Source: a bacterium | GTDB lineage: Bacteria > CG2-30-53-67 | Length of the DNA: 46,262 nucleotides | Assembly (NCBI GenBank): GCA_919901565.1 | Contig: CAKKPE010000038.1 | Coordinates: 1 to 46,262 of the forward strand | Reading direction: 5' to 3' | Part shown: positions 1 through 37,243 of the stretch, piece after piece | Layout: each line of letters opens with the position of its first letter | Numbering within the stretch: position 1 is the stretch's first letter | Notes under the pieces: generated by a model | What the model was told of the DNA's origin: nothing | Databases searched by the model: none | What the model saw: the letters and a program-made list of their open reading frames with translations, nothing else | Position numbers and translations under genes: made by a program

Positions 1-1891
1 TGCCTAATGAAGATGGGAGCCGCTACGGAATTTCAACTAAGAATGGGATTGACTCGATATTGCATGTGGTTCCGGTGCATTCCTTTTGGAATTATTTCAG
101 TTATTGAGTGATACTTTGGTCGATTTCTATTTAGTAAATGACACAACCAAGCTCATTCAGACCAATATTAATACATACAAACTTCCATTCAACCTAAAAA
201 GGAAACTTCTGCTGAATTGCATCTTTGGAACAGATAAAGATTACAATGCGGTTGAAGCAGCAAAGTTTGGTCTATTGCTCAAACTCCTCGAAGGAGAAGA
301 CAATAATTCTGTAAGTGCTAAAAATCCAATCTTACCCGACCTGAGTAGCAACATTCATTTTGGCAATACCTTAATAACGCCGCAAGATGTTAAAGACAGA
401 AAAGCTGCGATTAAAATAAACCCCTTTGATTTTGATAAAGAGCAGTATGACGTGATTGTGGGAAATCCGCCTTACATGAAATCGGAGGACATGAAGCAGT
501 TCACTCCTCTGGAATTACCGATTTACAAGAAAAAATACACTACCGCTTACAAGCAGTTTGATAAATACTTTGTCTTTATTGAACGAGGGCTTGAATTACT
601 AAAAGATGGCGGTTGGTTTGGCTATATTGTTCCAAGCAAATTTGCCAAAGTTGGTGCGGGTGTAAAACTCAGGGAACTTTTACAGGATAAACGATACATT
701 CTCAACATTGTTTCTTTTGGATCTAATCAGGTATTCAATAGTAAAACCACTTACACCTGTTTGCTGATTCTAAGAAAGAAAACTTCACCTTCATTCAGTT
801 ATACTGAAATACGAAACCTTACCGAATGGAAAGTCAGCGAGAAAGATGATATTGAATATCAAACGATAAAAACAGATAGCCTGAATAAAGAAGTTTGGGT
901 ACTTGTTTCCCCGGAACTTAAAAAGGCGTTTGATAAAATCAATACCCAAAGTGTTTCGCTCGAAGATATTGTTGGACGGGAAGGTATTTTCAATGGCATA
1001 CAAACGAGTGCCAACGCTATTTATATTTTCCAAGCCACAAAGAAGGATAAGACTTATTATTATTTCGAAAAGAAAGGTGAAACATGGAAGATTGAGAAAG
1101 CAATTACCAAACCTTACTTTCAGACTTCAATGGGAGACGATAACCTAAATACGTATCGTCCTTTCAAGCCCAATGCAAGGGTTATTTATCCATATAAAGC
1201 AACTAAAAAGGGTGTTGACCTAATTAGCCTGATAGAAATAAAAAAGAATTTTCCTGAAGCATACAAATATCTCCTGCATAACAAACCCGCTCTTGACAAT
1301 CCGAAAAGAGATATAAAACCTGAACCGCAAACCAAAGATGAATGGCACAGGTACGGACGACATCAAAGCTTGGATAAATGCGGTTTGCCAGAAAAAATCA
1401 TAGTCGGAGTTTTATCTGTTGGAGACAAATATGCCATTGATTTTCACGGAACATTAATTTCATCAGGAGGAACAGCAGGTTATTGTGTGGTTGCTTTACC
1501 TCCTGATTCACCTTATTCCATATACTACATTCAGGCGTTGCTCAACTCAAGATATCTGGAATGGTATTCGGCTTTATTGGGTGAAGTTTTCAGGGGTGGT
1601 TATATCGCAAGAGGAACAAAAGTTCTGAAACGTTTGCCCATTAGAAAAATAGATTTTACAAATAAGGACGATAAGGTTATTCACGACAAAATTGCGAAAG
1701 TCCAGAAAGAACTGATCCTGAAACAAGGTGAAATCGACCAAAACCACAATGACAAACGAACCCTGACAAGACTCAATAGAGAATTTGAGTTTTTGAAAAA
1801 TGACATCAATGAGCTTTTGAAAACGCTTTTTGATTTAGGAAATGACGATTCATTAATCCCTCTAATAAAAGAAATGTATGAAGCTAATTAA
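1..1891 (+). CDS. Eco57I/TaqI-type adenine-specific DNA methyltransferase, 5' end missing and frameshifted
   Basis: This is the C-terminal part of an N6-adenine DNA methyltransferase, probably the methylase/specificity half of a type IIG-like restriction-modification protein. The continuous frame opens at a stop at 50-52 and immediately encodes the SAM-binding motif LDIACGSGAFL (from 53). The catalytic motif IV reads VGNPPY near 453-476. The C-terminal half resembles a TaqI-like target-recognition domain and ends in a coiled-coil-like helix. A TTG at 86 would be an artificial start because it lies inside motif I. Upstream of 50 the reading continues sensibly in another frame from base 3, so the gene is broken there by a frameshift (natural decay or assembly error) and continues beyond the window. 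Any nuclease domain would lie upstream. The gene is AT-rich, unlike the core genes after 3654. It overlaps the next methyltransferase by 14 bp, indicating one operon. Confidence 0.8.
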
Positions 1892-3485
1892 ACACGCATC
1901 AGCAGAAAAACTTAGAGGTGGATTTTACACCCCTAAACCTATTGCAGCCTTCATTTTGAAATGGGGCCTCAATGGAAGTTCGTCTTATGATATTCTGGAA
2001 CCAAGTTGCGGAGACGGTGTGTTCCTTGAACAATTAAAGGAACAGAACCATAAGTTCAACAAAGTCACTGCCATCGAATTTGATGAAGCAGAAGCAGAAA
2101 AGGCTGATAATATTGATTTAGAAAGCAAGTCTATTATCAATAGCGATTTTCATTTGTACTGCAACGAAACTACGGAACGGTTTGATTTTGTTGTCGGAAA
2201 TCCGCCTTACATCAGATACCAATACTTTGATAAAGAACAACAGAGAGAAGCTGCTAAAATATTTAATCGTGCCAGACTTAAATACACCAAACTTACCAAT
2301 GCCTGGGTTTCATTTATCGTTGGTTCAAGCATCTTACTAAAGGAAAAAGGCAAAATAGGTTTTGTAGTTCCTGCGGAAATCCTTCAGGTTTCCTACGCCC
2401 AACAGCTAAGGGAGTTTTTGGCTTGCTTCTACAACAATATCAATATTGTTTCCTTCCAAAAGCTTGTATTCCTTGATATTCAGCAGGAAGTAGTTTTACT
2501 GCTTTGCGAAAAAAACGGCTCAGATAGCCACCTTATTGAACATTTGGAACTGACAGACGCATCCGAGTTGGAAACACTGGATGTAAACAAATTAAAAAGC
2601 CCCCAAAAGCAGATTGACTTCAAGAGCAATAAATGGACATTCTATTTCCTTGAACAGGAAGAAATCGATTTTCTTGAAACGGTTGCACAAAGGAAATCAA
2701 TTCCAAAAATTGGTGATTATGCCAATGTAGAAGTAGGGATTACTACCGGAGCGAATGATTATTTTACCGTTTCGCTACCAATTGTTGAAGGCTACAATTT
2801 ACAGGAGTTTGCCAAACCTATGGTGGGCAGAAGTGTGCAGGTGAACAGCATTGTTTTCAATGAAGAAGACTGGAAACACAATCGCCTGACAAAAGCAAAA
2901 GCCCATTTATTGGTATTCCCATCCAAACAGAAATTGAATGGACACAAAGGAGCGAACTCCTATATTTCAATGGGTGAATCAATGGGTATTAATAAAGGTT
3001 ACAAAACAGGTATTCGTGACGACTGGTTTGTAGTTCCTTCCATAAAATTATCAGAAGCCTTGTTTATCAGACGTAACAACTTTTTCCCAAAACTGATAGT
3101 GAATGAAGCAGGTGTATACACCACCGACACCATGCACCGGGTTTTTATGAGGCAAGGCGTAAACATCAATGCTTTTGTAGCTAGTTTCTACAATTCACTT
3201 TCATTGGCATTTTCGGAAATTTCAGGGCGTTCGTATGGCGGTGGTGTTTTAGAATTGATGCCCAGCGAAACAGAAAAAATCCTTCTCCCATACAAAGAAG
3301 AAAATGAGTCCCTGCTTCATCAGATTGACCAAATGATGCGGGCAAATAAAAGCATTGATGAAATTTTGAAAATCACCAATGAGCAAATTCTGGAAAAAGG
3401 ATACGGCTTCACAGATAAAGAAATAAAACTTGCGGACAGCATTTGGAAAAAGCTTTCGGCAAGGAGATTGAATAGGAACAAATAA
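1878..3485 (+). CDS. gamma-class N6-adenine DNA methyltransferase (Eco57I/PaeR7I-like)
   Basis: The 535-residue product is a second adenine-specific DNA methyltransferase. SAM-binding motif I is DILEPSCGDGVFLEQL (about residues 36-51) and the catalytic motif IV is VVGNPPYIRY (about 109-118), followed by a long variable C-terminal region that should hold target recognition. The motif order (I, then NPPY, then recognition region) is that of gamma-class enzymes. Near the C-terminus GRSYGGGVLELMPSE resembles PaeR7I/XhoI-type methylases. The ATG lies 14 bp inside the preceding methyltransferase gene, so translation is probably coupled. No restriction endonuclease gene follows; the next gene is housekeeping trmFO. 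Codon use is AT-rich and Bacteroidota-like rather than like the rest of the window, which points to horizontal transfer. The exact recognition sequence cannot be read from the protein. Confidence 0.85.
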   Translation: MKLIKHASAEKLRGGFYTPKPIAAFILKWGLNGSSSYDILEPSCGDGVFLEQLKEQNHKFNKVTAIEFDEAEAEKADNIDLESKSIINSDFHLYCNETTERFDFVVGNPPYIRYQYFDKEQQREAAKIFNRARLKYTKLTNAWVSFIVGSSILLKEKGKIGFVVPAEILQVSYAQQLREFLACFYNNINIVSFQKLVFLDIQQEVVLLLCEKNGSDSHLIEHLELTDASELETLDVNKLKSPQKQIDFKSNKWTFYFLEQEEIDFLETVAQRKSIPKIGDYANVEVGITTGANDYFTVSLPIVEGYNLQEFAKPMVGRSVQVNSIVFNEEDWKHNRLTKAKAHLLVFPSKQKLNGHKGANSYISMGESMGINKGYKTGIRDDWFVVPSIKLSEALFIRRNNFFPKLIVNEAGVYTTDTMHRVFMRQGVNINAFVASFYNSLSLAFSEISGRSYGGGVLELMPSETEKILLPYKEENESLLHQIDQMMRANKSIDEILKITNEQILEKGYGFTDKEIKLADSIWKKLSARRLNRNK

Positions 3486-11420: not shown

Positions 11421-12215
11421 ATGGAAAAATATTTCGATTCTGTGTATAATCAGCCCATGGACGCCTTTAAAGCCGCTTTTTTGATCATGCTCTTTTTATT
11501 TATGTCTCCGGTCCTGGCTTCGGCACAGAACAGTTGTGTCCAGTGCCATGAAGGCATAGAGAATCCGGCCATCAGGGAATTTCATAAGGAATGGAAGGCG
11601 TCTGCACATTCCCGTTCAGGGATCACCTGCGAGTACTGTCATGGCGGGGATCCGGGGAAGAGCGGGAAGGAGGCCGCTCACCAGGGCATTCGCAATGCGT
11701 TGGATCGTGAAAGCCTTGTCTATTATACAAAGATCCCGGCCCTTTGCGGAGGGTGCCACATCGCCGCATTCAGTGAATTCAAAACAAGCACCCATTACAG
11801 CAACCTTGTCACCAAGGGGGCCGGCCCCAATTGCGTGACATGCCATGATGCCATGGCCACGAAGATCATCAAACCGGGTGAGATTGAGATCTTTTGCGCA
11901 CTGTGCCATAATGCACAGATGAATCTGCTTCCGGGTGTCACAAGAGATGCCAGATCCTGCCTGGAACGGATGGACCTGATCGGGCAGAAGATTCAGGAGG
12001 CAGAGAAGGCCCTGGTGCAGGCAGAAAAGAGCGGAACCGATACCATCAAGGCCAGGGGATTTCTGTCCCTGGCCGGACGTGAATACGATGCCTCTAAACA
12101 GGACTGGCACAGCTTTCAGTTGAACCGCGTCGCATCCCGCCTCAAGGGGGTGGAACTGCTTGTGCAAAAAGCACTGGATTCATTAATCCGCCCCAAAGAA
12201 GATCGGACTGAGTAA
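11421..12215 (+). CDS. secreted pentaheme c-type cytochrome
   Basis: The 264-residue product has an N-terminal hydrophobic signal (about residues 16-35, AAFLIMLFLFMSPVLASA) and five CxxCH haem-binding motifs at about residues 39, 70, 109, 138 and 159, followed by a haem-free, helix-rich C-terminal third. It should be exported and matured by a cytochrome c assembly system in the periplasm. A second in-frame ATG at 11457 (residue 13) gives a more standard signal peptide and may be the true start. The histidine kinase gene begins one base after the stop, so the two are almost certainly co-transcribed. That arrangement suggests the cytochrome delivers a redox signal to, or is controlled by, the kinase; this is inference. 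It is not similar enough to NrfA, NapC or c7 types to be assigned. Confidence 0.88.
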   Translation: MEKYFDSVYNQPMDAFKAAFLIMLFLFMSPVLASAQNSCVQCHEGIENPAIREFHKEWKASAHSRSGITCEYCHGGDPGKSGKEAAHQGIRNALDRESLVYYTKIPALCGGCHIAAFSEFKTSTHYSNLVTKGAGPNCVTCHDAMATKIIKPGEIEIFCALCHNAQMNLLPGVTRDARSCLERMDLIGQKIQEAEKALVQAEKSGTDTIKARGFLSLAGREYDASKQDWHSFQLNRVASRLKGVELLVQKALDSLIRPKEDRTE

Positions 12216-12216
12216 T

Positions 12217-14331
12217 ATGAAAATCTTGAAGTTCCTGCAGCATCTATCCATTAATGCCAAGGTTGCTCTGGCCTACCTGGGGTTTGTGATCATCATCAGC
12301 GGCGCAGGGAGCATGCTTGTTGTCTACAATGAAAAGTCGGTCATCAGGCAGGGGCACATCGACCTGGTCCGGAACCTTGCAGAAAACACCCAGCCGGTCC
12401 TTCTGGTCGAACACAGGATGATGCTGAACCGGCTTGTCCAGACCGTCGGGAAGATGCCTGATGTGCGGTCCTGCGCCATCATGAACAAAAACAACCTGGT
12501 GGTGGCCCATACGGATATGGCCATGATCGGGCGAATACTTCTGGTCGGCGAACCTGTTATGGAATCCTTTAAAAAGAACGGATATTATTTTGAGATTTTT
12601 GGTAAACAGTTCGAGAATGTCTATGTTCCGGTTTACAGCTCCGGCCGGTATATCGGGAATGTTTTTGTAGGATTCGATGCCCCCAGCTTTGTGCGCCTGT
12701 TCCGACGGCCCGGGCGGGCTACCATTGAAAGCATCCTGATTGTTATTCTCTCTACGGCCTTGCTGGGGCTGATCGGGGCGTTTATTATCGCCAGGCTCAT
12801 ATCCTATCCCATCCGCATCCTGACCAAGAAGGTTTACAACGTTCATCAGGGCAAGATCCCCGAAAGGCACTTGCCCAAGAGCTACGTCTACTGCTGGGAA
12901 CAATTAGACTGCAAGCAAGTCCAATGCCCCTCTTACGGGAACAAGGCTGAGAAATGCTGGGCCGTTGCCGGGACCTTCTGCAGGGGAAAGGTGCAGGGGG
13001 TCTTCGCTCAGAAGATCGGTGACTGCCGGAACTGCATTGTCTTCAAGAAGAACTCCGGAGATGAGGTCGAGCAGCTCAACGATGCGTTCGACATCATGGT
13101 CCTGGACCTGGTCGACAATACCCAGAAGGCGGAAAAAGCCAAGATGGATATGGAAAAATATGCCTCGCAGCTGGAGGATGCCAACCGGGAAAATGTGGAT
13201 CTGAAGGCCTATACCGAAAGAATTCTCAACAGCCTCTCATCCGCTGTGATCTCCCTGGATGAGAATATGGTGATCAGGAAATACAACAGGACCGCTCAAT
13301 CCCTTCTGGGGTTGGACCTGGAAAGCCTTGTGGGTCGGGGTATAGCGGAGATCCCCCGATTTTGCAGCCGGTGCAATGATTTTTTCGGTTTGATCCTCAG
13401 GGCGCTGGAATCGTATAAAAAGCAAGGCAGGCCGATCATCGGGCAGGAGGTTTCCGTGACCAGGGCCGACGGGGAGCGGATGACCATCAGCCTGAGCGTT
13501 CTTCCTCTCCATGGAGATCCGGCCCTTGAAAAGACACCCATGATCGTGACATTTGAAGACATAACCGACAAGGAGAAGATGCGGGAGGAACTGACTCTCT
13601 CAAGGCAGCTTGCTGAACTGGGAGAGGTGGCCGCCAAGGTGGCGCATGACATCCGGAATCCCCTGAATGTCATTGCCGGGGGGGTCCATTATCTCAAGAC
13701 AAAGTACGTAAACGATTCGGAGATCCTGAATATGTCCAACCTGATCAGCGGCCAGGTCGAGCGCCTGAATAATGTGACATCGGGACTGCTGAAGGTCTCC
13801 AAGCCCATGATGCCGCATTACAATACTTGCGACTTCAACCGCCTTGTGGACGAATCCAGCTCTTTCCTTCTTGAGGAGATCAATCTGGCCGGGCTCCGCC
13901 TGGAAAAGGATCTCGATAAGGATATTCCTCCGCTGGTCCTCGATACCAACCAGATCCAGCGGGTTATCATCAATTTGATGGAAAACGCGATTGAGGCTAT
14001 GCTTCAGGGCGGGACCATCACCATCAGGACGCGCTACCTGCAGAATGGAGGCAGATCGGACGAGCAGGTGGAACTGTGTGTCCTGGATACCGGACCGGGC
14101 ATTCCCGATGAGATCGTGGATTCGGTATTCAAACCCTTTTACACGACCAAGGTTCACGGGACCGGGCTCGGACTTGCCATCGTCAGGCAGATTGTCACAC
14201 AGCACCGCGGCCAGGCCAGGATCAGACGGAGGGAACCCGGGCCGGGCACCGAGGTCCTGATCCTTCTTCCGGTCAAGACTCTACAAAAGGATATGTCCCA
14301 TGTCCATTCGTCCCAGCATCCTCGTGATTGA
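12217..14331 (+). CDS. membrane histidine kinase with Cys-rich module and PAS domain
   Basis: The 704-residue product is a sensor kinase. Order: transmembrane helix (about 16-37), an extracytoplasmic sensor region (about 38-165) with FGKQFENVYVPVYSSG, resembling a single-Cache fold, transmembrane helix (about 168-195), HAMP linker, a module with seven cysteines between residues 226 and 273 (CW...C...C...CW...C...C..C), a coiled coil, a PAS domain (about 335-450), a HisKA domain with phospho-acceptor His477 in KVAHDIRNPLNVI, and an HATPase domain with N, G1 and G2 boxes (NLMENAIEAM, LDTGPGIPDE, GTGLGLAIVRQ). The cysteine module could bind metal or sense redox state. The gene starts one base after the pentaheme cytochrome gene and overlaps the response regulator by 32 bp, forming one operon. 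It probably phosphorylates that regulator. Confidence 0.93.
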   Translation: MKILKFLQHLSINAKVALAYLGFVIIISGAGSMLVVYNEKSVIRQGHIDLVRNLAENTQPVLLVEHRMMLNRLVQTVGKMPDVRSCAIMNKNNLVVAHTDMAMIGRILLVGEPVMESFKKNGYYFEIFGKQFENVYVPVYSSGRYIGNVFVGFDAPSFVRLFRRPGRATIESILIVILSTALLGLIGAFIIARLISYPIRILTKKVYNVHQGKIPERHLPKSYVYCWEQLDCKQVQCPSYGNKAEKCWAVAGTFCRGKVQGVFAQKIGDCRNCIVFKKNSGDEVEQLNDAFDIMVLDLVDNTQKAEKAKMDMEKYASQLEDANRENVDLKAYTERILNSLSSAVISLDENMVIRKYNRTAQSLLGLDLESLVGRGIAEIPRFCSRCNDFFGLILRALESYKKQGRPIIGQEVSVTRADGERMTISLSVLPLHGDPALEKTPMIVTFEDITDKEKMREELTLSRQLAELGEVAAKVAHDIRNPLNVIAGGVHYLKTKYVNDSEILNMSNLISGQVERLNNVTSGLLKVSKPMMPHYNTCDFNRLVDESSSFLLEEINLAGLRLEKDLDKDIPPLVLDTNQIQRVIINLMENAIEAMLQGGTITIRTRYLQNGGRSDEQVELCVLDTGPGIPDEIVDSVFKPFYTTKVHGTGLGLAIVRQIVTQHRGQARIRRREPGPGTEVLILLPVKTLQKDMSHVHSSQHPRD

Positions 14332-15631
14332 TGATGAGCCGGCCATCCTGGAGGTCATGCGGTTAAACCTCGCCAAAGAGGGGTATCATGTCCTGACCGC
14401 TGCGTCAGGAGAGCAGGGCCTCGGCATCCTTTCGGAGAAGCTCGTGGATGCGGTGATTGTGGACTATAAAATGCCCGGGATGAGCGGGATCGATTTTCTG
14501 GAAAAGGCCAGGGCAAAGCACCAGGACATTCCGATCATCCTAGCCACGGCGCACGGGACCATCGAGATGGCGGTTAACGCCATGAAGCGCGGGGCGTACA
14601 ACTACCTGACCAAGCCATTGAATTATGAGGAGATGATACTGCTCCTCAAACAGGCCGTGGAGAAGAAGTGCCTGGTGGATAATGTGAAGGGGCTTCGGAA
14701 GGAGGTGCGCGGGCATTTCAGTTTTGAAAAGATTATTACCAACAACAAAAAAATGCTGGATCTGCTCGACATGGCGGCTCATGTCGCCGAAACGGATGCG
14801 ACCATTTTCATTCGCGGGGAGACCGGGACCGGCAAGGAATTGATTGCCAGGGCCATTCACTACAGCAGCCTGCGCGGGGACAAACCTTTTCTCAAAGTGA
14901 ACTGTACTGCGCTCCCGGAGGCACTTTTGGAGACTGAGCTGTTCGGGCACGTGAAGGGCGCCTTTACCGGGGCAACGAGAGACCGGAAAGGCCGTTTTGA
15001 GGCCGCGGATGGGGGCACGCTTTTCCTGGACGAGATCGGGGATATACCACATAATATGCAGGTCAAGCTTCTCCGGGTGCTCCAGGAGATGGAATTTGAA
15101 CGGCTCGGCAGCAATGAAACTTTCAAGGTCGACGTAAGAATTATTGTCTCCACCAACAGAAATCTTGAGGAGGCCATCCGCAACGGGGCGTTCAGGGAGG
15201 ATTTATTTTTCAGGCTTAATGTGGTTCCGGTCTTCATCCCTCCGCTCCGGGAAAGAAAGGATGATATCTATCTGCTGGCCAATGAATTCCTGGAAAGGTC
15301 CAACAGGAAACACAAGAAAAACATCCGTGTGATTCACCCCGACGTTATGCTGATCCTGCTCAACTACGGCTGGCCGGGGAACGTGAGGGAGCTTGAGAAC
15401 ATCATCGAACGGTCCGTAATTCTTTCCAGAGGCGATCAGCTTGATATCGAGCATTTCAAGGTTTTCTCTGGTGTCGTGCAGGCAGAAAAGAAGAAGAGCG
15501 AAAAGGAGACGATCATGGAACTTGAAGAAAAATACGCCGGTTTTCCCAACACACTGGAAATGATAGCCAAAGAACTTGGGATCGATTCTTCGACACTGTA
15601 TCGCAAAAGAAAAAAGCATGACCTGGCCTGA
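14300..15631 (+). CDS. sigma-54-dependent response regulator (NtrC family)
   Basis: The 443-residue product has a receiver domain (about 5-120) with the acidic pair in VIDDEP and the phospho-acceptor Asp55 in VDYKMPG, a sigma-54 AAA+ domain (about 145-370) with Walker A GETGTGKE, the sigma-54-contacting loop GAFTGA, Walker B FLDEIGD and the arginine finger region PGNVRELEN, and a C-terminal helix-turn-helix of the Fis type ending TLYRKRKKHDLA. It should activate sigma-54 RNA polymerase after phosphorylation by the kinase encoded just upstream. A near-perfect sigma-54 promoter lies 353 bp downstream, in front of the 9-haem cytochrome gene, which is the obvious candidate target. It is the last gene of the three-gene operon. 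Confidence 0.95.
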   Translation: MSIRPSILVIDDEPAILEVMRLNLAKEGYHVLTAASGEQGLGILSEKLVDAVIVDYKMPGMSGIDFLEKARAKHQDIPIILATAHGTIEMAVNAMKRGAYNYLTKPLNYEEMILLLKQAVEKKCLVDNVKGLRKEVRGHFSFEKIITNNKKMLDLLDMAAHVAETDATIFIRGETGTGKELIARAIHYSSLRGDKPFLKVNCTALPEALLETELFGHVKGAFTGATRDRKGRFEAADGGTLFLDEIGDIPHNMQVKLLRVLQEMEFERLGSNETFKVDVRIIVSTNRNLEEAIRNGAFREDLFFRLNVVPVFIPPLRERKDDIYLLANEFLERSNRKHKKNIRVIHPDVMLILLNYGWPGNVRELENIIERSVILSRGDQLDIEHFKVFSGVVQAEKKKSEKETIMELEEKYAGFPNTLEMIAKELGIDSSTLYRKRKKHDLA

Positions 15632-15983
15632 TTCACGGCATGGAGATTGCATTTTGCACGATTCATAGGAAAAGTTTTTCCCACTGGTTACCCGTCCATA
15701 ACCTGCATCGGATAATATGTGCTCCTTTTTCAGTTTATTCCCGATGAAAATTTTATTTATGCAAGATCAATGGGTTAGGAAGCATATCTCGGGCATATGC
15801 AAAAGATGGCGCTACGATTGTAATCTTTTGGTTTTAGGATAGGTTCTCCAAATATTTACATTAATATATTCTTGATTTGTTGACATTCCCAAATCCGCCC
15901 GAACCGCTGTCCAAACATTATTACACCCTGTTTTCAATAAGTTGGAAAGATACAAAGGCCGCATGCGCACCGGATGCCATTGT
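15632..15983. other. intergenic regulatory region, candidate enhancer
   Basis: No gene is visible in this AT-rich stretch between the response regulator and the sigma-54 promoter. A small dyad (GCATAT at 15782-15787 with ATATGC at 15795-15800) lies about 190 bp upstream of the promoter, at a typical distance for an enhancer bound by an NtrC-family activator. The assignment as an upstream activating site is a guess. Confidence 0.3.
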
Positions 15984-15999
15984 TGGCACAGGTTTTGCT
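15984..15999 (+). promoter_or_regulatory. sigma-54 (-24/-12) promoter for the 9-haem cytochrome gene
   Basis: TGGCACAGGTTTTGCT matches the sigma-54 consensus TGGCAC-N5-TTGCW exactly. GG at 15985-15986 and GC at 15997-15998 are separated by the required ten bases. Transcription would begin near 16011, leaving a leader of about 118 bases before the ATG at 16129. It faces the cytochrome gene and follows the gene for a sigma-54 activator. Confidence 0.85.
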
Positions 16000-16128
16000 C
16001 TATGAATTTATGTCTTACATACATTCATTATTGATCTGTTTAATGAAGGGGGGTGTTCGCAGGTCAGGTATTGATCTTGTTTGTGGGTTGTCTATGGATG
16101 AACGTAAAATTTGAAATGGGGGTTATCT

Positions 16129-19100
16129 ATGAAAAAGTTGATTAGAATGTCGGCCTTGTTTTTACTCATTGCAGTCATGGCCATGATCTATCCTGCCACT
16201 GGCTTCAGCAAGCCGGGTGGCGGAGGCGGCGGATCAACCACCCCTCCCAAGAACGCCTTCAATATCATGATGAACTACGAGCTGGGGATGCACTGCACGG
16301 GTTTTGAGTTTTCGTACTGCTGCATCCTCCCGCCGTACAACTCGATCCTGGCCCAGGTGGTCAAGACCGAGAAGGCAGGGGGAAAACCCAAGCTCATGCA
16401 AGCCGACCCCAACGTGGGGATCGACGGCCTGGGCCGTCCGACCGTAGTGCGGGACACGGCGCTGGACGGGAGCGGGAACTTCAAGAAGTACATGCTTCGT
16501 TACTGGCACGATGCCCAGCCGAGGAACGACGGCCGGGGCGCCCCTCAGACCAGCACCCTGATCAGCCAGGTCGAAGGGAACTCCATGCTCATGTGGAATA
16601 CGGTTTTTGACTCGGCCGCCCTGGACGCCAACGGGGCCCTGATCTACGGGACCAAGAACGGCGCCAGCGGTGTGGTTCTCGGCGACGGCGATACCTCTGA
16701 TTTCACCGACAACTATGCCAATGCCTGGATGAACCACCTGTATATTTATGCCGACCTGGAGGGGAGCAATCCCAACAATTCCAGTCTGGAGAAAGACAAG
16801 ATCCGCCTCGGCGTTACGGGCCATGTGGAATATCCCGAAAACGTGGGCGCCGCGCTGCACCCCATGGGCCCCATCGACCCGAATGACCCGAGCCAAGGGA
16901 CCTCGGGCGGTCCGTTTGACAACGTGCTCACCTTCTCCGGCGATACGGGGACCGTGGTCTTCACCCAGATGAAGGTGCTGGAGAACCTTCCGATCATGCT
17001 GACTTCACCGCGGATATGGGAGGCCCTGGGCCTTCCCCTGACGCCCTTTGAAGACAGCATCAACTTTTTCGGTGATCCCGGTGCCATTGATGAAGACTCG
17101 ATCCGTCCCTACGTCCAGATGCGCGCCCGATTGGTGGACTATACCACGGGGAGTGCGGTCCTGGACGGTGGCAAGCCAGTGGAAGGTCTGGGCACGGCGC
17201 CCATTGATATACCGAACTGCGAACGGTGCCACTCCCTGGGAGCGGGCCCGGTGAATAGCGCCCAGACGGCCCATCCCGATATTGCGGTCATGGTGCAGGG
17301 TGAGATTGACTTCTGGAACGGCTACTATGACATCGATACCGGGGCCGGAGATTCGGATTGGTACTCCCGTCTCAAGGGCGCAGCCATCAGCATTCTGGCG
17401 ATCCATGATGCCGAGCACGGGACCTCCTTTTTGGCCGGTTATCCGGGGACGGGATCCGGTCTCCCGCAGAATACCCGTCTGGGTGGCGAGACCGTGGTCT
17501 GCCAGCGCTGCCATGCGGACAACGTCATTGCCGTGGTCAAGTCAGCCAACTGCGGACCTGCGCAGGGCGACTGCGAAGCAGGCAACCTGATTCCTCCGAT
17601 GACCGAGGCGATCCACAACAACCACAAAGATAACCCGTTCTCCGACTCTCTGGGCCGGAACGGCGGGTGCCAGGGCTGTCACCCGGCGCACCGTTCTGAC
17701 GGGAGCCTTGCCGGCTACCCGATCACCGAAACCGGCGACAACGCCTATGCGGCCGGGGACAACCGAGATGCATCCGGCGGCTGTTTTGTGGGCCGCGACG
17801 TGCATTCCAACCGCAACAAGGACAATGACGGCGCCGGGACCCCGAGCCATCTGAACGCCGTGGGCCAGTGGCTGGTCACGAACGTGGCCAATGACACCGG
17901 GACATGGAAGGGGATCTGGTGCACCAACTGCCACAGCCAACTGGGCCAGGAACTCTGGAAGGCGGAAAACGTTCCGGACCTCGTGCATGCAAATCCCGGA
18001 GACCCTGGCCATGTGCGTGAGCCTTTTGCCGGAGCGGCACTATCCGACGTGGCCTCAGGACTGGGGATCTCCACATCCCAGGCCATCGCCTGGCTCGATC
18101 CCAAGAACAATGCCGACACGGCGGCGGTCTGGAAGGAGGATCCCGGGCTTTGCAACTACGTTGCGGGATACTTCGGAGTTATTCCTGTGGATCCCGGTCA
18201 TGACGGGAATGTAGCAACCGTTGAGGTCCAGGTGAACAGTGCTTCATCCTGTACCACAGGCGGGGGCACAGGCCTGATTGATTGCGGCGCGGCCTATCCC
18301 GGCGCTCCGGCTTTCTATATCTGCGGTTCCACAGATGCTGACGGCGATTTTTCTGTCAGCGCCCTGGATTTCTGCACCACTCCGGATTGTGTTGCTGCGG
18401 CCCAGGCAAGCCTGCCTGCAGGATCCGTAGCCGTGCCGGTGCCTTTCTCTGCGGCGACCGACGGCCGGGACCACTGGCTGTCAGCCGGCGAGCCCCATTG
18501 TGCGGACTGCCATGCGGCGCCATACGTGGAGCAGAGCGGGAACATCACGGCCTACCCGCCGTTTAACTACCCGAAGAAGGCCTCGCTCTTCCGCTACACA
18601 AGAGGTCATCAGGATATCTCCTGCCAGGGCTGCCATGAGTCGATCCACGGGCTCTATCCGGTCACGCCGGACATTGATACCACAACCTATGCCCAGGCAG
18701 CCGGCATGAACACGGACGGGTCCCACGGACCGCTCAAGTGCGGGGCGTGCCATAAAGTGAACAGTGCCGGTGTTCCGAGCTTTATCCAGAACATTAAGTA
18801 CAAAGGGACCAGCATCAAAAACAACTTCGATGCGGCGGTTTCCTGGTCCCATACCTTCACGGCAGAGTCTGATCCTACCACGAATCTTTGCGTGAACTGC
18901 CATGGGGACAATTCCTCCAAGGTCTCGTGCAGCAACTCGGAGTGGCTGAAGCATTCCATGGATGGACGGGTCTCCCGTGAACAGATGGACAAGGTGGAGA
19001 CCAAAAAGTACGGAGCTGTGTGCGGTTCCACGAATCCGCAGACTACGGTCTGTACAAAGTGCCACGGGAGCGAGTGGAGCGAAGTCTCATGCTCCGAGAA

Positions 19101-19194
19101 TGAATGGCTCAACCACCTGGTGCAAGGACGTGTCTCCGAGTCTGTGTGGGAAGCGGTCTCGACGACGCGGACCGGAGGGACCTGCGGATACTGA
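16129..19194 (+). CDS. large secreted nonaheme c-type cytochrome
   Basis: The 1021-residue product begins at the ATG at 16129, giving the signal peptide MKKLIRMSALFLLIAVMAMI and a signal peptidase I-like end after ATGFS; an upstream in-frame TTG is not needed. No lipobox is present. After a Gly-rich linker comes a haem-free N-terminal domain (to about 360) opening with the motif NYELGMHCTGFEFSYCC (residues 49-65), then nine CxxCH motifs at about 364, 458, 514, 598, 791, 832, 871, 921 and 975. The last two lie in a tandem duplication (about 921-968 and 975-1021) of the form CxxCH...VSCS..EWL.H...GRVS...CG. A weak G-rich ribosome binding site precedes it. It is driven by a sigma-54 promoter, followed by a terminator, and is a paralogue of the 7-haem protein at 20908. 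An extracellular or periplasmic electron-transfer role is likely; the partner is unknown. Confidence 0.9.
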   Translation: MKKLIRMSALFLLIAVMAMIYPATGFSKPGGGGGGSTTPPKNAFNIMMNYELGMHCTGFEFSYCCILPPYNSILAQVVKTEKAGGKPKLMQADPNVGIDGLGRPTVVRDTALDGSGNFKKYMLRYWHDAQPRNDGRGAPQTSTLISQVEGNSMLMWNTVFDSAALDANGALIYGTKNGASGVVLGDGDTSDFTDNYANAWMNHLYIYADLEGSNPNNSSLEKDKIRLGVTGHVEYPENVGAALHPMGPIDPNDPSQGTSGGPFDNVLTFSGDTGTVVFTQMKVLENLPIMLTSPRIWEALGLPLTPFEDSINFFGDPGAIDEDSIRPYVQMRARLVDYTTGSAVLDGGKPVEGLGTAPIDIPNCERCHSLGAGPVNSAQTAHPDIAVMVQGEIDFWNGYYDIDTGAGDSDWYSRLKGAAISILAIHDAEHGTSFLAGYPGTGSGLPQNTRLGGETVVCQRCHADNVIAVVKSANCGPAQGDCEAGNLIPPMTEAIHNNHKDNPFSDSLGRNGGCQGCHPAHRSDGSLAGYPITETGDNAYAAGDNRDASGGCFVGRDVHSNRNKDNDGAGTPSHLNAVGQWLVTNVANDTGTWKGIWCTNCHSQLGQELWKAENVPDLVHANPGDPGHVREPFAGAALSDVASGLGISTSQAIAWLDPKNNADTAAVWKEDPGLCNYVAGYFGVIPVDPGHDGNVATVEVQVNSASSCTTGGGTGLIDCGAAYPGAPAFYICGSTDADGDFSVSALDFCTTPDCVAAAQASLPAGSVAVPVPFSAATDGRDHWLSAGEPHCADCHAAPYVEQSGNITAYPPFNYPKKASLFRYTRGHQDISCQGCHESIHGLYPVTPDIDTTTYAQAAGMNTDGSHGPLKCGACHKVNSAGVPSFIQNIKYKGTSIKNNFDAAVSWSHTFTAESDPTTNLCVNCHGDNSSKVSCSNSEWLKHSMDGRVSREQMDKVETKKYGAVCGSTNPQTTVCTKCHGSEWSEVSCSENEWLNHLVQGRVSESVWEAVSTTRTGGTCGY

Positions 19195-19242: not shown

Positions 19243-19277
19243 AACGGAGGGGAAGTTCTTTCCCCTCCGTTTTTTTA
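19243..19277 (+). terminator. rho-independent terminator after the nonaheme cytochrome gene
   Basis: ACGGAGGGGA at 19244-19253 pairs with TCCCCTCCGT at 19261-19270, followed by a T run. The rest of the 304-bp gap before the foldase gene (19278-19498) is AT-rich and shows no gene. A sigma-70 promoter probably lies there, but no convincing -35/-10 pair was picked out. Confidence 0.9.
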
Positions 19278-19498: not shown

Positions 19499-20896
19499 AT
19501 GACGAGATTATTTGGGTTGACGGTCCTGGGTTTTTGGGTTTTCATGATTTTTAACGCGGTGCCGGGAGCCCAGGCCCAGGAGGCGAGCGATGTCATTGCA
19601 AAGGTGGGTGACCAGGTCATCACGTTTAGTGAAATCGATACCCTGATCAACAGCTCATCGATCATCGGGCTCGATATCCCGGCTTACGGAACCCCGGGGA
19701 GGAACACGGCGAGGCTCTCCATCCTGGACAAGATGATCTCGGCGGATCTTCTATACCTGGATGCCCTGAAAAATGATGCGGACAAGGACCCCGATTACGG
19801 CCGTGAGGCAGCGGATTACGACGAGTCTATGCTGGCCGTCATGTACAAGGAGAAATTCCTTGTGGGGGAAATCCCGGTGACCGGGAAAGAGATCCAGGAT
19901 TTTTATAAGACCAATATTCAGAAGGGGACAGAGCTTACGGACGATATGAAGCTGGCCATTGAGGCCTCGATACGAAAGAATAAATTCAAGGATCGAGTGG
20001 CGGGGATGCGCGAAAGGTTAAGAAAGGATATTTCTGTCTCAGTGAAGGAAGAGAATTTACGTCCCGAAGATGACGGGAAACGCGAAGACACGGCTGTGGC
20101 CGCGGCCATGGATAGCGTTGTGATCACCTGGGGAGAGGTGAAGAAGATTCTGACCGGTGGTCCGGGCAAGAGTTCCATGGCCGATCGTGTGGAAGCCATG
20201 AACCGCTTCATTGACAATCGGCTTATGGTGAACAAGGCCAGGGAAGAAGGGCTGGACAAGGATCTGATCTATCAGTCAAGGGTTAATGAGTTCAGGAAAA
20301 CGCACCTGATTAATTTCCACAGATCCCAACTGGTAGAGAGGTTCACGCCGACTGAAGAGGAGATCGATTCCTATTTTGAGAAGAACAAGGACAAGATCGC
20401 CGTGGCCGATGTGCGCAAGATTCAGATGGTGGTATTGAAGAGCAAGGAAGAGGCGGAGCAGGTCAAGAAGAAGATAGACTCAGGGGAGATCACTATTTTT
20501 GAGGCGGCCAGGGATTTTTCCATTGACCCGAATGCGAAACAGACCCTGGGGGAGATGGGATGGGTATCCAGGAGTACGGGTTTTCCCGGCCTGGAAAAGC
20601 TGACGTTTTCCCTGAAAGCCGGAGAATTGGGAGGGCCCGTGGAATCGCCGGCAGGATGGCATCTGGTCAAGGTCCTGGATGTCCGGGACAGCATGTATCA
20701 GGATATCAACGACAAAGGCGCCCGCGAAAAGACCCGGCGGATGTACATCCATGAAAAACTGGATCAGTATACGTCTGACCTCAGAAAAAAAGTCTTTCCT
20801 GTTGAGGTCTATGAAGACGTATTCAATCGTATAACCGGGGAAGAAATTGACCGGATCCAAAAAAAGATGGGAACTCCTCCGGGAGGCACGAAGTAG
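19499..20896 (+). CDS. periplasmic peptidylprolyl isomerase (parvulin, SurA/PpiC-like)
   Basis: The 465-residue product has a signal peptide (about 1-27, ending GAQA) and a SurA-like N-terminal chaperone region, followed by a parvulin rotamase domain (about 290-400) with the family blocks EAARDFSIDPNAKQTLGEMG and ELGGPVESPAGWHLVKVLD. It should assist folding of exported proteins in the periplasm. A strong ribosome binding site (AAAGGAGAG at about 19484) precedes the ATG. The 7-haem cytochrome gene starts 11 bases after the stop, so they form an operon, and the foldase lies between two paralogous cytochromes. A dedicated role in maturing these large cytochromes is therefore a reasonable inference. 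It is larger than a simple PpiC and resembles the SurA/PrsA group. Confidence 0.88.
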   Translation: MTRLFGLTVLGFWVFMIFNAVPGAQAQEASDVIAKVGDQVITFSEIDTLINSSSIIGLDIPAYGTPGRNTARLSILDKMISADLLYLDALKNDADKDPDYGREAADYDESMLAVMYKEKFLVGEIPVTGKEIQDFYKTNIQKGTELTDDMKLAIEASIRKNKFKDRVAGMRERLRKDISVSVKEENLRPEDDGKREDTAVAAAMDSVVITWGEVKKILTGGPGKSSMADRVEAMNRFIDNRLMVNKAREEGLDKDLIYQSRVNEFRKTHLINFHRSQLVERFTPTEEEIDSYFEKNKDKIAVADVRKIQMVVLKSKEEAEQVKKKIDSGEITIFEAARDFSIDPNAKQTLGEMGWVSRSTGFPGLEKLTFSLKAGELGGPVESPAGWHLVKVLDVRDSMYQDINDKGAREKTRRMYIHEKLDQYTSDLRKKVFPVEVYEDVFNRITGEEIDRIQKKMGTPPGGTK

Positions 20897-20907: not shown

Positions 20908-23238
20908 ATGGCATCTTTTCCAAGGAGAATACGCTGGGTCTTCCTGCAATGCCTCTTTGCTGTTTTCTCGGTCTCTGCCCATGCAGGGCTGATCGACTTT
21001 TTTCACCGGGATCAGGTTCCACCCCGGGACTACCTCATCCTGATCAATTATGAGCTGGGCATGCACTGCACGGGGTTTGATTTTTCCTATTGCTGTATCC
21101 TTCCGCCCTACAATTCCATACTGGCCCAGGTGGTGAAGACCGAAAGGAACGGGCAAAACCCTCGCCTTCTCGGATCCGACCCCAAGGACCCGGAGGTGCT
21201 GGTCGACGGCGGGAAACGCTTCAAGCTTGCCTATACCCATGAAGACCCCGATGGAATTCCCAACACCTTCTCGGCCAGCAAGAAGCTCGTCTACTGGGGG
21301 GTGGGATACAAGGGAGGCGATCTCCCGGGCCACTATTTCAGCAGCCTCTACATCTACAAGGATCTGGAGGGGAACAATCCCGAAAACACGACCGCGGATT
21401 CGAAGAAACGCCATGTCGGGATCGACACCCCCATCAAATTTAATCAGGGACCTACAGGCCAGCACGTGGGCAAAGGTTTTCTCCGTTATTCCGGTGGAAC
21501 AGGGACCGTGGTTTTTGCGGATTCTCCGGCCATGGAGAACGTACCCATAAAGCTGACCAATCCCGGGATCTGGGAGGCTCTGGGCCTCCCTCTGACGCCC
21601 TTTAATGACCGCTTCACAGCATTATCGCAGGTAGAAGAGACCATGGTGCAGCCCTTCCAGAAATCGGTGGTGACCCTAATCGATGCCGATACAGGCGAGC
21701 CTGTGATCGACTCGTCCGGGCAGGTGGTCCGGTTCTTCGGCGTCAATCCGATTGACGTTCCCAATTGTGCCCGCTGCCATTCCAATGAACGTGCCAACGG
21801 GACCAGGTATGTGAAGTACAAGGAAGAATATAACTTCTGGAAGAATGTGAAATATTCCGGAGAATGGTATGCCGAACTCAAGGCGGCCGCGGTCTCCATT
21901 CTGGAGATTCATGATGACCATCACGGCACCAACTTTTTGGCAAAGTGGCCGGCAGGGACAAAAGTGCATAACCGGCTTGGCCGGGATACCATCCTCTGCC
22001 AGGATTGCCATGCCGACAATGTGATCGGGAGACTCTCTTCCAGGAAAGCCGGAAAAATGGATGAGAAAGACATTCAAAAAAACCATCCCGGCATCCCCGA
22101 TGCCGAGCACCTGATCTCCCCCCTGACCGAGGCCATTCACAGAGTCCATCAGCAGAAGAACCCGCTGCCCGACAGCCTGGGTTTTGCCGGCGGCTGTCAG
22201 CTCTGTCACCCATCTCATCGAAGCGACCGGACCATGGACGATTTTCCCCTCACAGCGGATGGCAGGAACCATTTCGCAGCGGGTGACATCCGGGACTCCA
22301 AAGGCTGCTTTACGGGGAGAGATCTCCATGCCAATCCCAGGCGGAGTAAGGACGGCGCCGGGACGCCGAGCTATCTCAATGCCGTGGGTAACCACCTCCT
22401 GCTCGAGGTCATGAATACCGGCGGCGGGGACAAGGGATTGTACTGCACCAACTGCCACAACAGGCTCTCACGCGAGCTTTACAAGGCAGACCACCTCACG
22501 GATGCGATCCATCAAAAGGGTCAGACCCTTCGGAACCAATCCCTGGACAAGATGGCCGAGGCTGTAGGTGTTACGCTTCAGGAACTGAAGAACGATTACA
22601 TCAATCCCAAGAGCCCCATCGGGCGGGCGGAAGACACTGCATCCGGCGTCTACCGGACCTGGGACCGAACGGGACAGATCATTGCTCCCATTGCCAGGAT
22701 TAAGGTGGACGATCAAGGAAAGCCGGTGCTGACGCCGCCTGATGAAGACGGGGATCGTTCGGTGGTCATTGAGGACACAGACCCGCAAGGCACCTCAGGG
22801 ATGGCGGTCCCCTACGATGCGGCAACACACGGGAGGGACTACTGGCTCGCTCCGGGGGAGCCCCACTGCGCGGATTGTCATCGGCCTCCCTTTGTGGAAA
22901 GCGTGGGCGGCGGCGCCTTCCCCATTGACCAGCCCGGCAAATATGCGCTCATGCGGTATTCCAAAGGGCACGCAGGGATCACCTGCCAGGGGTGCCACGA
23001 ATCGAGCCATGGCCTCTATCCCGTGAATCCAGGGGTGGATATTTCCGGATATCAGCAGGCCGGTCTTTTGAATCCTGACGGATCCCACGGCCCGGTCAAG
23101 TGCGGGGCCTGTCACAGGATCAATCAGCATGGGGTTCCGTCGAAACATCCGGATCAGATCAGCAAGAAGAGTTCGGTTTGGCGTAGTTATGAAGAAGCTG
23201 TAGAGCTGCAGCATACGCTGAGGAATGAAAAAGAGTGA
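20908..23238 (+). CDS. secreted heptaheme c-type cytochrome, paralogue of the nonaheme protein
   Basis: The 776-residue product has a signal peptide ending near SVSAHA (about residue 26) and the same opening motif as its upstream paralogue (NYELGMHCTGFDFSYCC, then ILPPYNSILAQVVKTE). Seven CxxCH motifs lie at about residues 287, 364, 430, 513, 654, 693 and 732 and correspond in order and spacing context to the first seven of the nonaheme protein. It stops shortly after the seventh, lacking the duplicated two-haem tail. The ATG is preceded by AGAGGA. It begins 11 bases after the foldase gene and overlaps the lipoprotein gene by four bases, so foldase, cytochrome and lipoprotein form one operon. 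Role in electron transfer across the envelope is inferred from the haem content and secretion. Confidence 0.9.
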   Translation: MASFPRRIRWVFLQCLFAVFSVSAHAGLIDFFHRDQVPPRDYLILINYELGMHCTGFDFSYCCILPPYNSILAQVVKTERNGQNPRLLGSDPKDPEVLVDGGKRFKLAYTHEDPDGIPNTFSASKKLVYWGVGYKGGDLPGHYFSSLYIYKDLEGNNPENTTADSKKRHVGIDTPIKFNQGPTGQHVGKGFLRYSGGTGTVVFADSPAMENVPIKLTNPGIWEALGLPLTPFNDRFTALSQVEETMVQPFQKSVVTLIDADTGEPVIDSSGQVVRFFGVNPIDVPNCARCHSNERANGTRYVKYKEEYNFWKNVKYSGEWYAELKAAAVSILEIHDDHHGTNFLAKWPAGTKVHNRLGRDTILCQDCHADNVIGRLSSRKAGKMDEKDIQKNHPGIPDAEHLISPLTEAIHRVHQQKNPLPDSLGFAGGCQLCHPSHRSDRTMDDFPLTADGRNHFAAGDIRDSKGCFTGRDLHANPRRSKDGAGTPSYLNAVGNHLLLEVMNTGGGDKGLYCTNCHNRLSRELYKADHLTDAIHQKGQTLRNQSLDKMAEAVGVTLQELKNDYINPKSPIGRAEDTASGVYRTWDRTGQIIAPIARIKVDDQGKPVLTPPDEDGDRSVVIEDTDPQGTSGMAVPYDAATHGRDYWLAPGEPHCADCHRPPFVESVGGGAFPIDQPGKYALMRYSKGHAGITCQGCHESSHGLYPVNPGVDISGYQQAGLLNPDGSHGPVKCGACHRINQHGVPSKHPDQISKKSSVWRSYEEAVELQHTLRNEKE

Positions 23239-36249: not shown

Positions 36250-36579
36250 ATGCAGGAGCTTTCTGACATGGAACAACCTCAACTCAACTGGATAGCCAAC
36301 TTCATCTGGGGCGTCGCCGACGATGTCCTGCGGGACCTCTATGTCCGGGGCAAGTACCGGGATGTCATCCTGCCGATGACGGTTCTGCGCCGACTCGACG
36401 CGCTGCTGGAGCCGACCAATCAGGCTGTCCTCGACATGAAGTCCTCCCTCGACAAGGCTGGCATCGTCCATCAGGATCAGGCGCTGCGGCGGCAGCGGGA
36501 CAGGCATTCTACAACACCTCGAAGTTCACCATTGGATACGGAGGAGATCACGGAAACTGCGGAGGTTGAAGAAGCATGA
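36250..36579 (+). pseudogene. 5' fragment of a type I restriction methyltransferase gene (hsdM')
   Basis: The frame encodes the N-terminal HsdM_N helix bundle of a type I modification subunit: PQLNWIANFIWGVADDVLRD, KYRDVILPMTVLRRLDALL and SLDKAGIVHQDQAL. After about residue 80 the frame shifts: bases 36490-36530 read on as AAGQAFYNTSKFT in another frame, which is the expected continuation, and then the gene is cut off at about 36534. The original frame continues through unrelated acidic sequence to a stop that overlaps the darT start (ATGA). The SAM-binding and NPPF motifs are absent, so no methylation activity remains. The likely start is at 36268. It differs in sequence from the intact hsdM at 40140. 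Confidence 0.8.
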
Positions 36580-37223
36580 GCGAACCACCTGACAGACCGA
36601 AAATCTATCATATTACTCATGTGGATAATCTAACCTCTATTCTGGCTGCGGGCGGTCTTGAGTCAGATGCAAGGGGGCTTGCTCAGGAAGCAGGGCATAC
36701 GACTATCGGCATGACGGAGATCAAACAGCGTAGGTTGACTCTGGAGGTTGACTGCCACCCAGGAACCAAAGTCGGTGAGTATGTTCCATTTTACTTTTGT
36801 CCCCGTTCGATCATGTTGTATCTGATCCACATGGGAAATCACCTTGACTTGGCCTACACGGGCGGGCAACGGCCTATTTTACATCTCGAAGCGGACCTCT
36901 ATTCTGTGGTACAATGGGCCAGGGAGAACAGCCACCGATGGGCCTTCAGCAAGAGCAACGCAGGGGCCTATTATACGCGGTTTAAGAAAAGCTTGGACGA
37001 TTTGAACGATGTGAACTGGGACGCAGTTGAAGCCATGGATTTTCGCGACTCAAGAATCAAAGAAGGCAAACAGGCCGAGTTCCTGCTTCACGACACTTGC
37101 CCCTGGAAACTCATAGAACGAATCGGCGTGATTGATGAGCCGACAGCGGAGCGGGTCAACACGATTCTCAGGCAGAACAGGCATCGGCCCGGCGTTAGCG
37201 TTCAGCCTGATTGGTACTATTGA
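36576..37223 (+). CDS. darT: DarT DNA ADP-ribosyltransferase toxin
   Basis: The 215-residue product matches DarT (DUF4433), a toxin that transfers ADP-ribose from NAD+ to a base (thymidine or guanosine, depending on subtype) in single-stranded DNA. Features: the N-terminal IYHITHVDNLTSILAAGGL, an Arg-rich NAD-loop segment (EIKQRRLTLEV), the block PFYFCPRSIMLYLI, and the catalytic glutamate E168 in KQAEFLLHD. Length is normal (about 200-220). It overlaps the stop of the hsdM' relic by four bases, and darG starts 20 bases downstream, the usual order for the pair. DarTG modules are commonly embedded in type I restriction operons and act against phages. It appears intact, and the presence of intact DarG is required for survival. 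Confidence 0.9.
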   Translation: MSEPPDRPKIYHITHVDNLTSILAAGGLESDARGLAQEAGHTTIGMTEIKQRRLTLEVDCHPGTKVGEYVPFYFCPRSIMLYLIHMGNHLDLAYTGGQRPILHLEADLYSVVQWARENSHRWAFSKSNAGAYYTRFKKSLDDLNDVNWDAVEAMDFRDSRIKEGKQAEFLLHDTCPWKLIERIGVIDEPTAERVNTILRQNRHRPGVSVQPDWYY

Positions 37224-37243
37224 AACATATAGGAGATAATGCC

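Follow-up and report, generated by a model that had tools for sequence, protein, structure and literature searches.

The 46,262-nt stretch of DNA analysed here (the window) is contig C38 (CAKKPE010000038.1) of a 2.96-Mb draft genome (G000) from the bacterial lineage CG2-30-53-67. Downstream of dnaE and accA, it carries genes for a pentaheme c-type cytochrome, a membrane histidine kinase and an NtrC-family response regulator, followed by about 500 bp of non-coding DNA with a sigma-54 promoter, and then by the gene for a secreted nonaheme c-type cytochrome (Table 1). The comparison set comprised eight genomes of the same class, all of them drafts, including the six members of the family (G000–G005).

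Table 1. Features of the locus (window coordinates)
Feature	Position	Strand	Remarks
Pentaheme c-type cytochrome	11421–12215	+	264 aa; signal peptide; 5 CXXCH; first gene of the predicted regulatory operon
Membrane histidine kinase	12217–14331	+	704 aa; sCache_3_2, transmembrane segment, two-CW, PAS with CxRC, HisKA, HATPase_c
NtrC-family response regulator	14300–15631	+	443 aa; receiver, sigma-54 AAA, atypical Fis-type helix-turn-helix
Element A GCATTTTGCACGAT	15649–15662	+	candidate binding site of the adjacent regulator
Element B1, palindrome TAGGAAAAGTTTTTCCCA	15666–15683		box of the exopolysaccharide/PEP-CTERM sigma-54 regulon
Element B2, degenerate second palindrome GGATAGGTTCTCC	15837–15849
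Sigma-54 (−24/−12) promoter TGGCACAGGTTTTGCT	15984–15999	+	expected start near 16010
Secreted nonaheme c-type cytochrome	16129–19194	+	9 CXXCH; output gene
Strong intrinsic terminator	19244–19276	+	−30.8 kcal/mol, z −5.65
PpiC-type peptidyl-prolyl isomerase	19499–20896	+	Rotamase match; separate unit
Heptaheme paralogue of the output cytochrome	20908–23238	+	7 CXXCH; separate unit

The regulatory operon, the sigma-54 promoter and the output gene

The pentaheme, kinase and regulator genes are predicted, from their spacing, to be one tight operon (11421–15631), as a first-pass annotation of the sequence had proposed: the kinase gene starts 1 nt past the pentaheme stop codon, the regulator reading frame overlaps that of the kinase by 32 nt, and the order is kept in the family. 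Translation of the pentaheme gene more probably begins at 11457, an in-frame ATG that is conserved. Its product matched Cytochrome_C7 (E 2.7e-7) and has orthologues in G001, G002, G003, G004 and G005, and all five heme motifs were invariant among eight homologues.

The kinase combines a periplasmic single-cache domain (sCache_3_2, E 1.6e-7) with a cytoplasmic seven-cysteine linker at approximately residues 226–279. This linker corresponds to the NCBIfam two-CW domain NF045718, with scores of 41.8 bits for the linker alone and 37.4 bits for the whole input half (curated cut-off 35 bits). All seven two-CW cysteines, at residues 226, 232, 237, 247, 255, 270 and 273, and the CxRC pair of the PAS domain, C383 and C386, were invariant in the kinases of all six family members, and these were also the only genomes, among 386 searched, with full-length matches to the input half. 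Redox sensing by the kinase and the pentaheme protein is plausible. The regulator has the parts of an NtrC-type sigma-54 two-component activator, namely, a receiver (Response_reg, 3e-29), an AAA domain (Sigma54_activat, 2e-71) with GAFTGA at residue 220 and a DNA-binding domain, the last of which scored 17.1 bits against HTH_8, below the cut-off of 22 bits. Its orthologues are 68–84% identical.

The sequence TGGCACAGGTTTTGCT was the sole match to TGGCACRNNNNTTGCW without mismatch in the window, where only 0.69 chance matches would be expected even if one mismatch were allowed, and its score was reached by no site in 15 dinucleotide shuffles of the window. It carries −24 GG and −12 GC at a 10-bp spacing, is intergenic and is conserved, the four properties by which we defined a sigma-54 promoter. 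The genome contains rpoN and, genome-wide, 34 matches to TGGYAYRNNNNYTGCW, compared with six for the reversed control. A chance origin of the site is ruled out because it is kept upstream of the cytochrome gene in relatives. Uniqueness, shuffling, conservation and the presence of rpoN support the consensus −24/−12 promoter noted in the first-pass annotation as a real one. The RpoN consensus of Geobacter sulfurreducens, TTGGCACGGTTTTTGCT, differs from the corresponding sequence here, TTGGCACAGGTTTTGCT, which is the 16-mer extended by one base, at two positions (PMC2725144).

The gene served by this promoter, earlier described as that of a secreted multiheme cytochrome, indeed encodes a protein with nine CXXCH motifs; the reading frame is open from a listed TTG at 16111, and its probable start is an ATG 18 nt further on. 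Orthologues in G001 and G005 are 71–73% identical, each with nine CXXCH motifs. The strong terminator beyond the gene makes the output a single-gene unit, so that the peptidyl-prolyl isomerase and heptaheme genes lie outside it. The heptaheme protein shares 38–39% identity with the nonaheme proteins, and its gene is not preceded by a sigma-54 site, there being no other consensus site in the window. No curated family matched the multiheme proteins of the neighbourhood above cut-off over their full length, and no significant relative of the nonaheme protein was found in the PDB by sequence. Its AlphaFold model (predicted local distance difference test score, 43) was too poor to be used for assessing a relation to filaments of the OmcS, OmcE or OmcZ type. 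A role in extracellular electron transfer is what we infer for this secreted protein. G003 has an open frame of 1725 aa (contig C22, locus L087, 9907–15084) that is related to both the nonaheme and the heptaheme proteins and contains 16 CXXCH motifs.

Conserved gene order and upstream elements

The pentaheme–kinase–regulator order was found in all six family members, downstream of dnaE and accA wherever the contig shows these genes. The first-pass annotation had proposed a search for the same gene order in other genomes; regulator, sigma-54 site and cytochrome gene were found in this order in three relatives belonging to two genera (G001, a close relative, G003 and G005), together with a locus-specific upstream element, and the upstream footprint described below rests on these three. 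Two of them carry an orthologous nonaheme gene and one a heptaheme unit. In G001, the identical 16-mer lies between the regulator and nonaheme genes, and a gene for a NIDO/TSP3/dockerin protein is inserted between promoter and cytochrome. In G005, TGGCACACATATTGCT precedes the nonaheme orthologue (71% identity), and in G003 a weaker site, CGGCACGGGGATTGCA, precedes genes for a DUF3034 outer-membrane protein (porin) and a heptaheme protein. G002 and G004 keep the pentaheme, kinase and regulator genes, with no cytochrome gene or sigma-54 site nearby. A further locus, in G070, with a regulator beside a heptaheme gene and a peptidyl-prolyl isomerase gene, was not counted as the same circuit, as its helix-turn-helix differs and it has no sigma-54 site.

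Two kinds of element lie in the intergenic region upstream of the promoter. Element A, of the pattern GCATN{1,2}TGCACGAT, was present in each of the four genomes that show the layout, some tens of bases past the regulator stop codon; these include G003, whose intergenic region is otherwise barely alignable. It occurs once in G000, at this locus, and the number of matches elsewhere in the eight genomes was at chance level. The 8-mer TGCACGAT alone was common to the sequences in 37 of 2000 shuffled triples (p about 0.02), and the additional GCAT half would make a chance origin much less likely. Position and conservation make element A the foremost candidate for the sequence bound by the adjacent regulator. 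Other genomic matches were rejected as targets, since those examined were in or overlapping coding frames or had no nearby sigma-54 cytochrome unit. One element A-like sequence in G007 (TTGCATATGCACGATCAAAACTTTTTCC; C111:19050, L226), which may be due to chance, directly adjoins half of a palindrome and has a weak sigma-54 match close by on the opposite strand.

Element B consists of copies of the palindrome TAGGAAAANNTTTTCC. The copy at 15666 is perfect, as are both copies in G001 (−317 and −148), the first of them at the distance of the window copy (−316/−317, counted from the TGG of the promoter); the second palindrome of G005, at −150, has one mismatch, and the remaining positions hold degenerate copies. 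The two distances are thus kept across three species, at −310 to −317 and at −148 to −150. When a box regulon is defined by this palindrome within 450 bp upstream of a −24/−12 site, the cytochrome promoter belongs to it, although the spacing differs from the usual 21-bp array. In G000, 12 further sigma-54 promoters have the palindrome upstream, mostly as 21-bp-spaced arrays, and precede genes for secreted proteins; two of the box-regulon proteins end in a classical PEP-CTERM signal (IPEPASLLLLGTGLAALIAIKRRK and VPEPASLVLIGSGLLAMVGLSRRRNRR). The palindrome also precedes the activator gene that heads an exopolysaccharide operon (the type of G000 contig C158) in all six family genomes, and the contig bearing this activator in G000 also bears an exosortase EpsH gene. 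From this distribution, TAGGAAAANNTTTTCC is the predicted mark of a lineage-specific sigma-54 regulon. The best candidate for the protein binding element B is the exopolysaccharide-operon activator, a pairing derived from position only. The box-regulon loci in G000 (L149, L150, L155–L160, L165, L176, L180, L182 and L185) encode PEP-CTERM, dockerin and other secreted proteins; the figure of 13 of 37 refers to loci gathered for a sigma-54 or box match, not to the whole genome.

Two other assignments of the palindrome were rejected. PrsR is not its binder, since G006 and G007 have PrsR and no box, whereas G000 and G001 have the box and no PrsR above the cut-off. The adjacent regulator scored 363 bits against the PrsR model (TIGR02915; curated cut-off 502.6 bits), and no protein of G000 exceeded this cut-off. 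Nor is the palindrome a general cytochrome box, since cytochrome genes with sigma-54 sites at L168, L179 and L187 lack it. These three loci of G000 (on C80, C152 and C64, respectively) hold multiheme genes with strong sigma-54 sites, and an NtrC-type regulator is encoded near two of them; sigma-54 control of cytochromes seems, from such sites, to be common in this genome.

Candidate activators and signals

The best explanation overall, to which we give roughly an even chance, is a family-specific respiratory control locus. The pentaheme protein and the membrane kinase, with its periplasmic cache, cytoplasmic two-CW and PAS domains, would monitor the electron-acceptor side of respiration. Once phosphorylated, the NtrC-type regulator would bind the distal element A and, through DNA looping, activate the sigma-54 polymerase at the promoter, and the product would be the secreted nonaheme cytochrome, made from a one-gene unit closed by its terminator. 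A second activator, the one at the head of the exopolysaccharide operon, would probably contribute through B1 and the degenerate B2, coupling the cytochrome to matrix production. That the adjacent regulator is the main activator through element A appears slightly favoured over the contrary, while the case for the exopolysaccharide activator as a second input through element B is evenly balanced. Joint control of the nonaheme cytochrome by the respiratory (pentaheme/two-CW) and exopolysaccharide activators at one dual-input sigma-54 enhancer is a more doubtful proposal, and we consider it tentative. If true, extracellular electron conduits would be made only when the respiratory signal and matrix construction are both on. 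The arrangement of the sites suggests that the production of extracellular ‘wires’ is linked both to a respiratory signal and to the building of biofilm.

The best explanation draws on the conserved operon, promoter and elements described above, on the parallel loci of G001 and G007 and on precedents among known systems (see below). Several points weigh against it. The genome carries approximately 18 NtrC-type activators. The pattern of element A was chosen post hoc from four sequences, with the p value given above for its 8-mer core, and the element could be something else, such as a transcript-end site or a site resembling that of the integration host factor. The lack of a cytochrome gene and promoter beside the regulator in G002 and G004 would mean that the regulator has, or had, other targets. 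Finally, the sCache domain speaks for a small ligand no less than for redox state.

What the kinase and pentaheme protein sense may be redox state, via the hemes and the cysteines of the two-CW domain, or a molecule bound by the cache domain. The strongest competing explanation, which we place a little short of even, leaves the wiring as it is and replaces the signal: the sCache domain would bind a small molecule, such as an acceptor or a carboxylate, and the pentaheme protein would be an electron carrier only. The sCache_3_2 match is consistent with this, as is the weak similarity of the kinase input half to DcuS/MalK-type kinases (E 5e-4), and the kinase of a parallel locus in G001 (see below) has HAMP and lacks two-CW, with a PhnD-like binding protein encoded ahead of it. 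The invariance of the seven two-CW cysteines and of the PAS CxRC pair in six kinases, in contrast, fits a metal- or redox-active module, and the kinase gene keeps its pentaheme neighbour even in genomes that have lost the output cytochrome. The sensing of redox by this system, as first annotated, is thus to be read as conditional, since the cache domain could bind a small ligand instead.

The first-pass annotation further regarded the locus as a complete circuit. The part assigning the promoter to the adjacent regulator stands as likely; the completeness does not, as the promoter also bears the palindrome of a separate regulon with an activator gene of its own. Because of this regulon and of the number of NtrC-type activators in the genome, the adjacent regulator is not the sole candidate. 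At the extreme, the promoter would be real and activated through the palindromes by the exopolysaccharide-operon regulator, while the neighbouring two-component system has its targets elsewhere and lies next to the promoter only incidentally; in that case, the nonaheme protein would be a biofilm-matrix cytochrome made with exopolysaccharide and PEP-CTERM proteins. Arguments for this possibility are the perfect B1, the preserved distances of both boxes in G001 and G005, and the recurrence of the box, often as 21-bp arrays, at the 12 other promoters and ahead of the C158-type regulator gene in each of the six family genomes. So do the matrix-like NIDO/TSP3/dockerin protein between promoter and cytochrome in G001 and the retention of the regulators without the cytochrome in G002 and G004. 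However, the boxes at the present locus are single, with a distance of approximately 170 bp between them, whereas those of the matrix genes form 21-bp arrays; G003 has the regulator, a sigma-54 site and a multiheme output without a box; and element A is specific to the regulator–cytochrome intergenic region. We regard exclusive control by the exopolysaccharide regulator as unlikely, at about one chance in four. Binding of the palindromes by the adjacent regulator itself, sharing the box with the exopolysaccharide regulator, is improbable: the box lies within the expected enhancer range in three species, but the recognition helices differ (GIDSSTLYRKRKKHDL vs VSYKALLYKIKENKI) and the orthologous G003 locus has no box despite a 71% identical regulator.

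Related systems and other genes of the window

The locus was initially annotated as having no described counterpart of exactly this layout. Its layout is indeed restricted to the family, judged by the kinase input half in the 386 genomes searched, but similar systems exist. In Desulfovibrio, the gene for the NtrC-type activator DVU3142 adjoins the ohcBAC octaheme cytochrome operon, which has a conserved sigma-54 promoter and upstream sites; where ohcA and ohcC have been lost, ohcB retains the sigma-54 site (PMC4641369). A sigma-54 activator gene thus lies beside a multiheme cytochrome unit, as here. However, the two are divergent, the description includes no pentaheme protein or two-CW kinase, and the output is a membrane-bound electron-transfer complex (PMC4641369) instead of a single secreted nonaheme protein. 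In Escherichia coli, the pentaheme c-type cytochrome TorC, encoded with the system that it helps to regulate, binds the periplasmic domain of the sensor kinase TorS; TorC, however, belongs to a different family, being a quinol oxidase of the NapC/NirT type; TorR is not among the sigma-54 activators, and the output is trimethylamine N-oxide reductase (PMC11727998). The PrsK–PrsR PEP-CTERM box regulon likewise has a repeated box and a −24/−12 promoter before genes for secreted matrix proteins, with the activator near exopolysaccharide genes, whereas the box here is TAGGAAAANNTTTTCC and lies farther upstream, the published motif ending in TTTACA (PMC1569441). In G. sulfurreducens, the activator gene pilR lies directly upstream of its sigma-54 target, pilA; the RpoN targets there are pilin, dcuB and fdnG, and the control of cytochromes is general, not that of a dedicated pentaheme/kinase operon (PMC2725144).

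Paralogous loci were also found in relatives. In G001 (C135:1–18000, L077), kinase, regulator and pentaheme genes are followed by a sigma-54 site and an operon for decaheme, outer-membrane and MtrC-like proteins and a molybdoenzyme, with a PhnD-like binding protein gene upstream. A similar arrangement in G007 (C181, L078) lacks the decaheme gene and has a weaker sigma-54 site. Both differ from the window in gene order within the operon, in a kinase with HAMP and no two-CW domain, and in an output that includes a terminal reductase. Their occurrence suggests that bacteria of this class repeatedly use a pentaheme protein, a kinase and an NtrC-type activator together as a switch for respiratory cytochromes. 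The differences from the known systems lie in the combination of parts, which is confined to one family, in the two-CW sensor and in the overlapping matrix regulon.

How electroactive bacteria choose among multiheme cytochromes, and how they coordinate them with the biofilm matrix, is a largely open question. The present locus is a compact, conserved case, two-CW sensor included, in which named elements (A, B1 and the promoter; Table 1) can be tested by reporter assay without culturing the source organism.

The window also carries defence genes. Between 36250 and 46262, the order is an HsdM N-terminal fragment, DarT (36576–37223), DarG (37211–38290), a DUF6602/NucC-like protein, complete HsdM, HsdS, a GmrSD_N protein and HsdR. 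In this cluster, a DarTG pair is lodged next to type I restriction genes, of which hsdM is partially duplicated. At the window edge, 86–3485 encodes a type IIG-like restriction-methylase and a type II methyltransferase.

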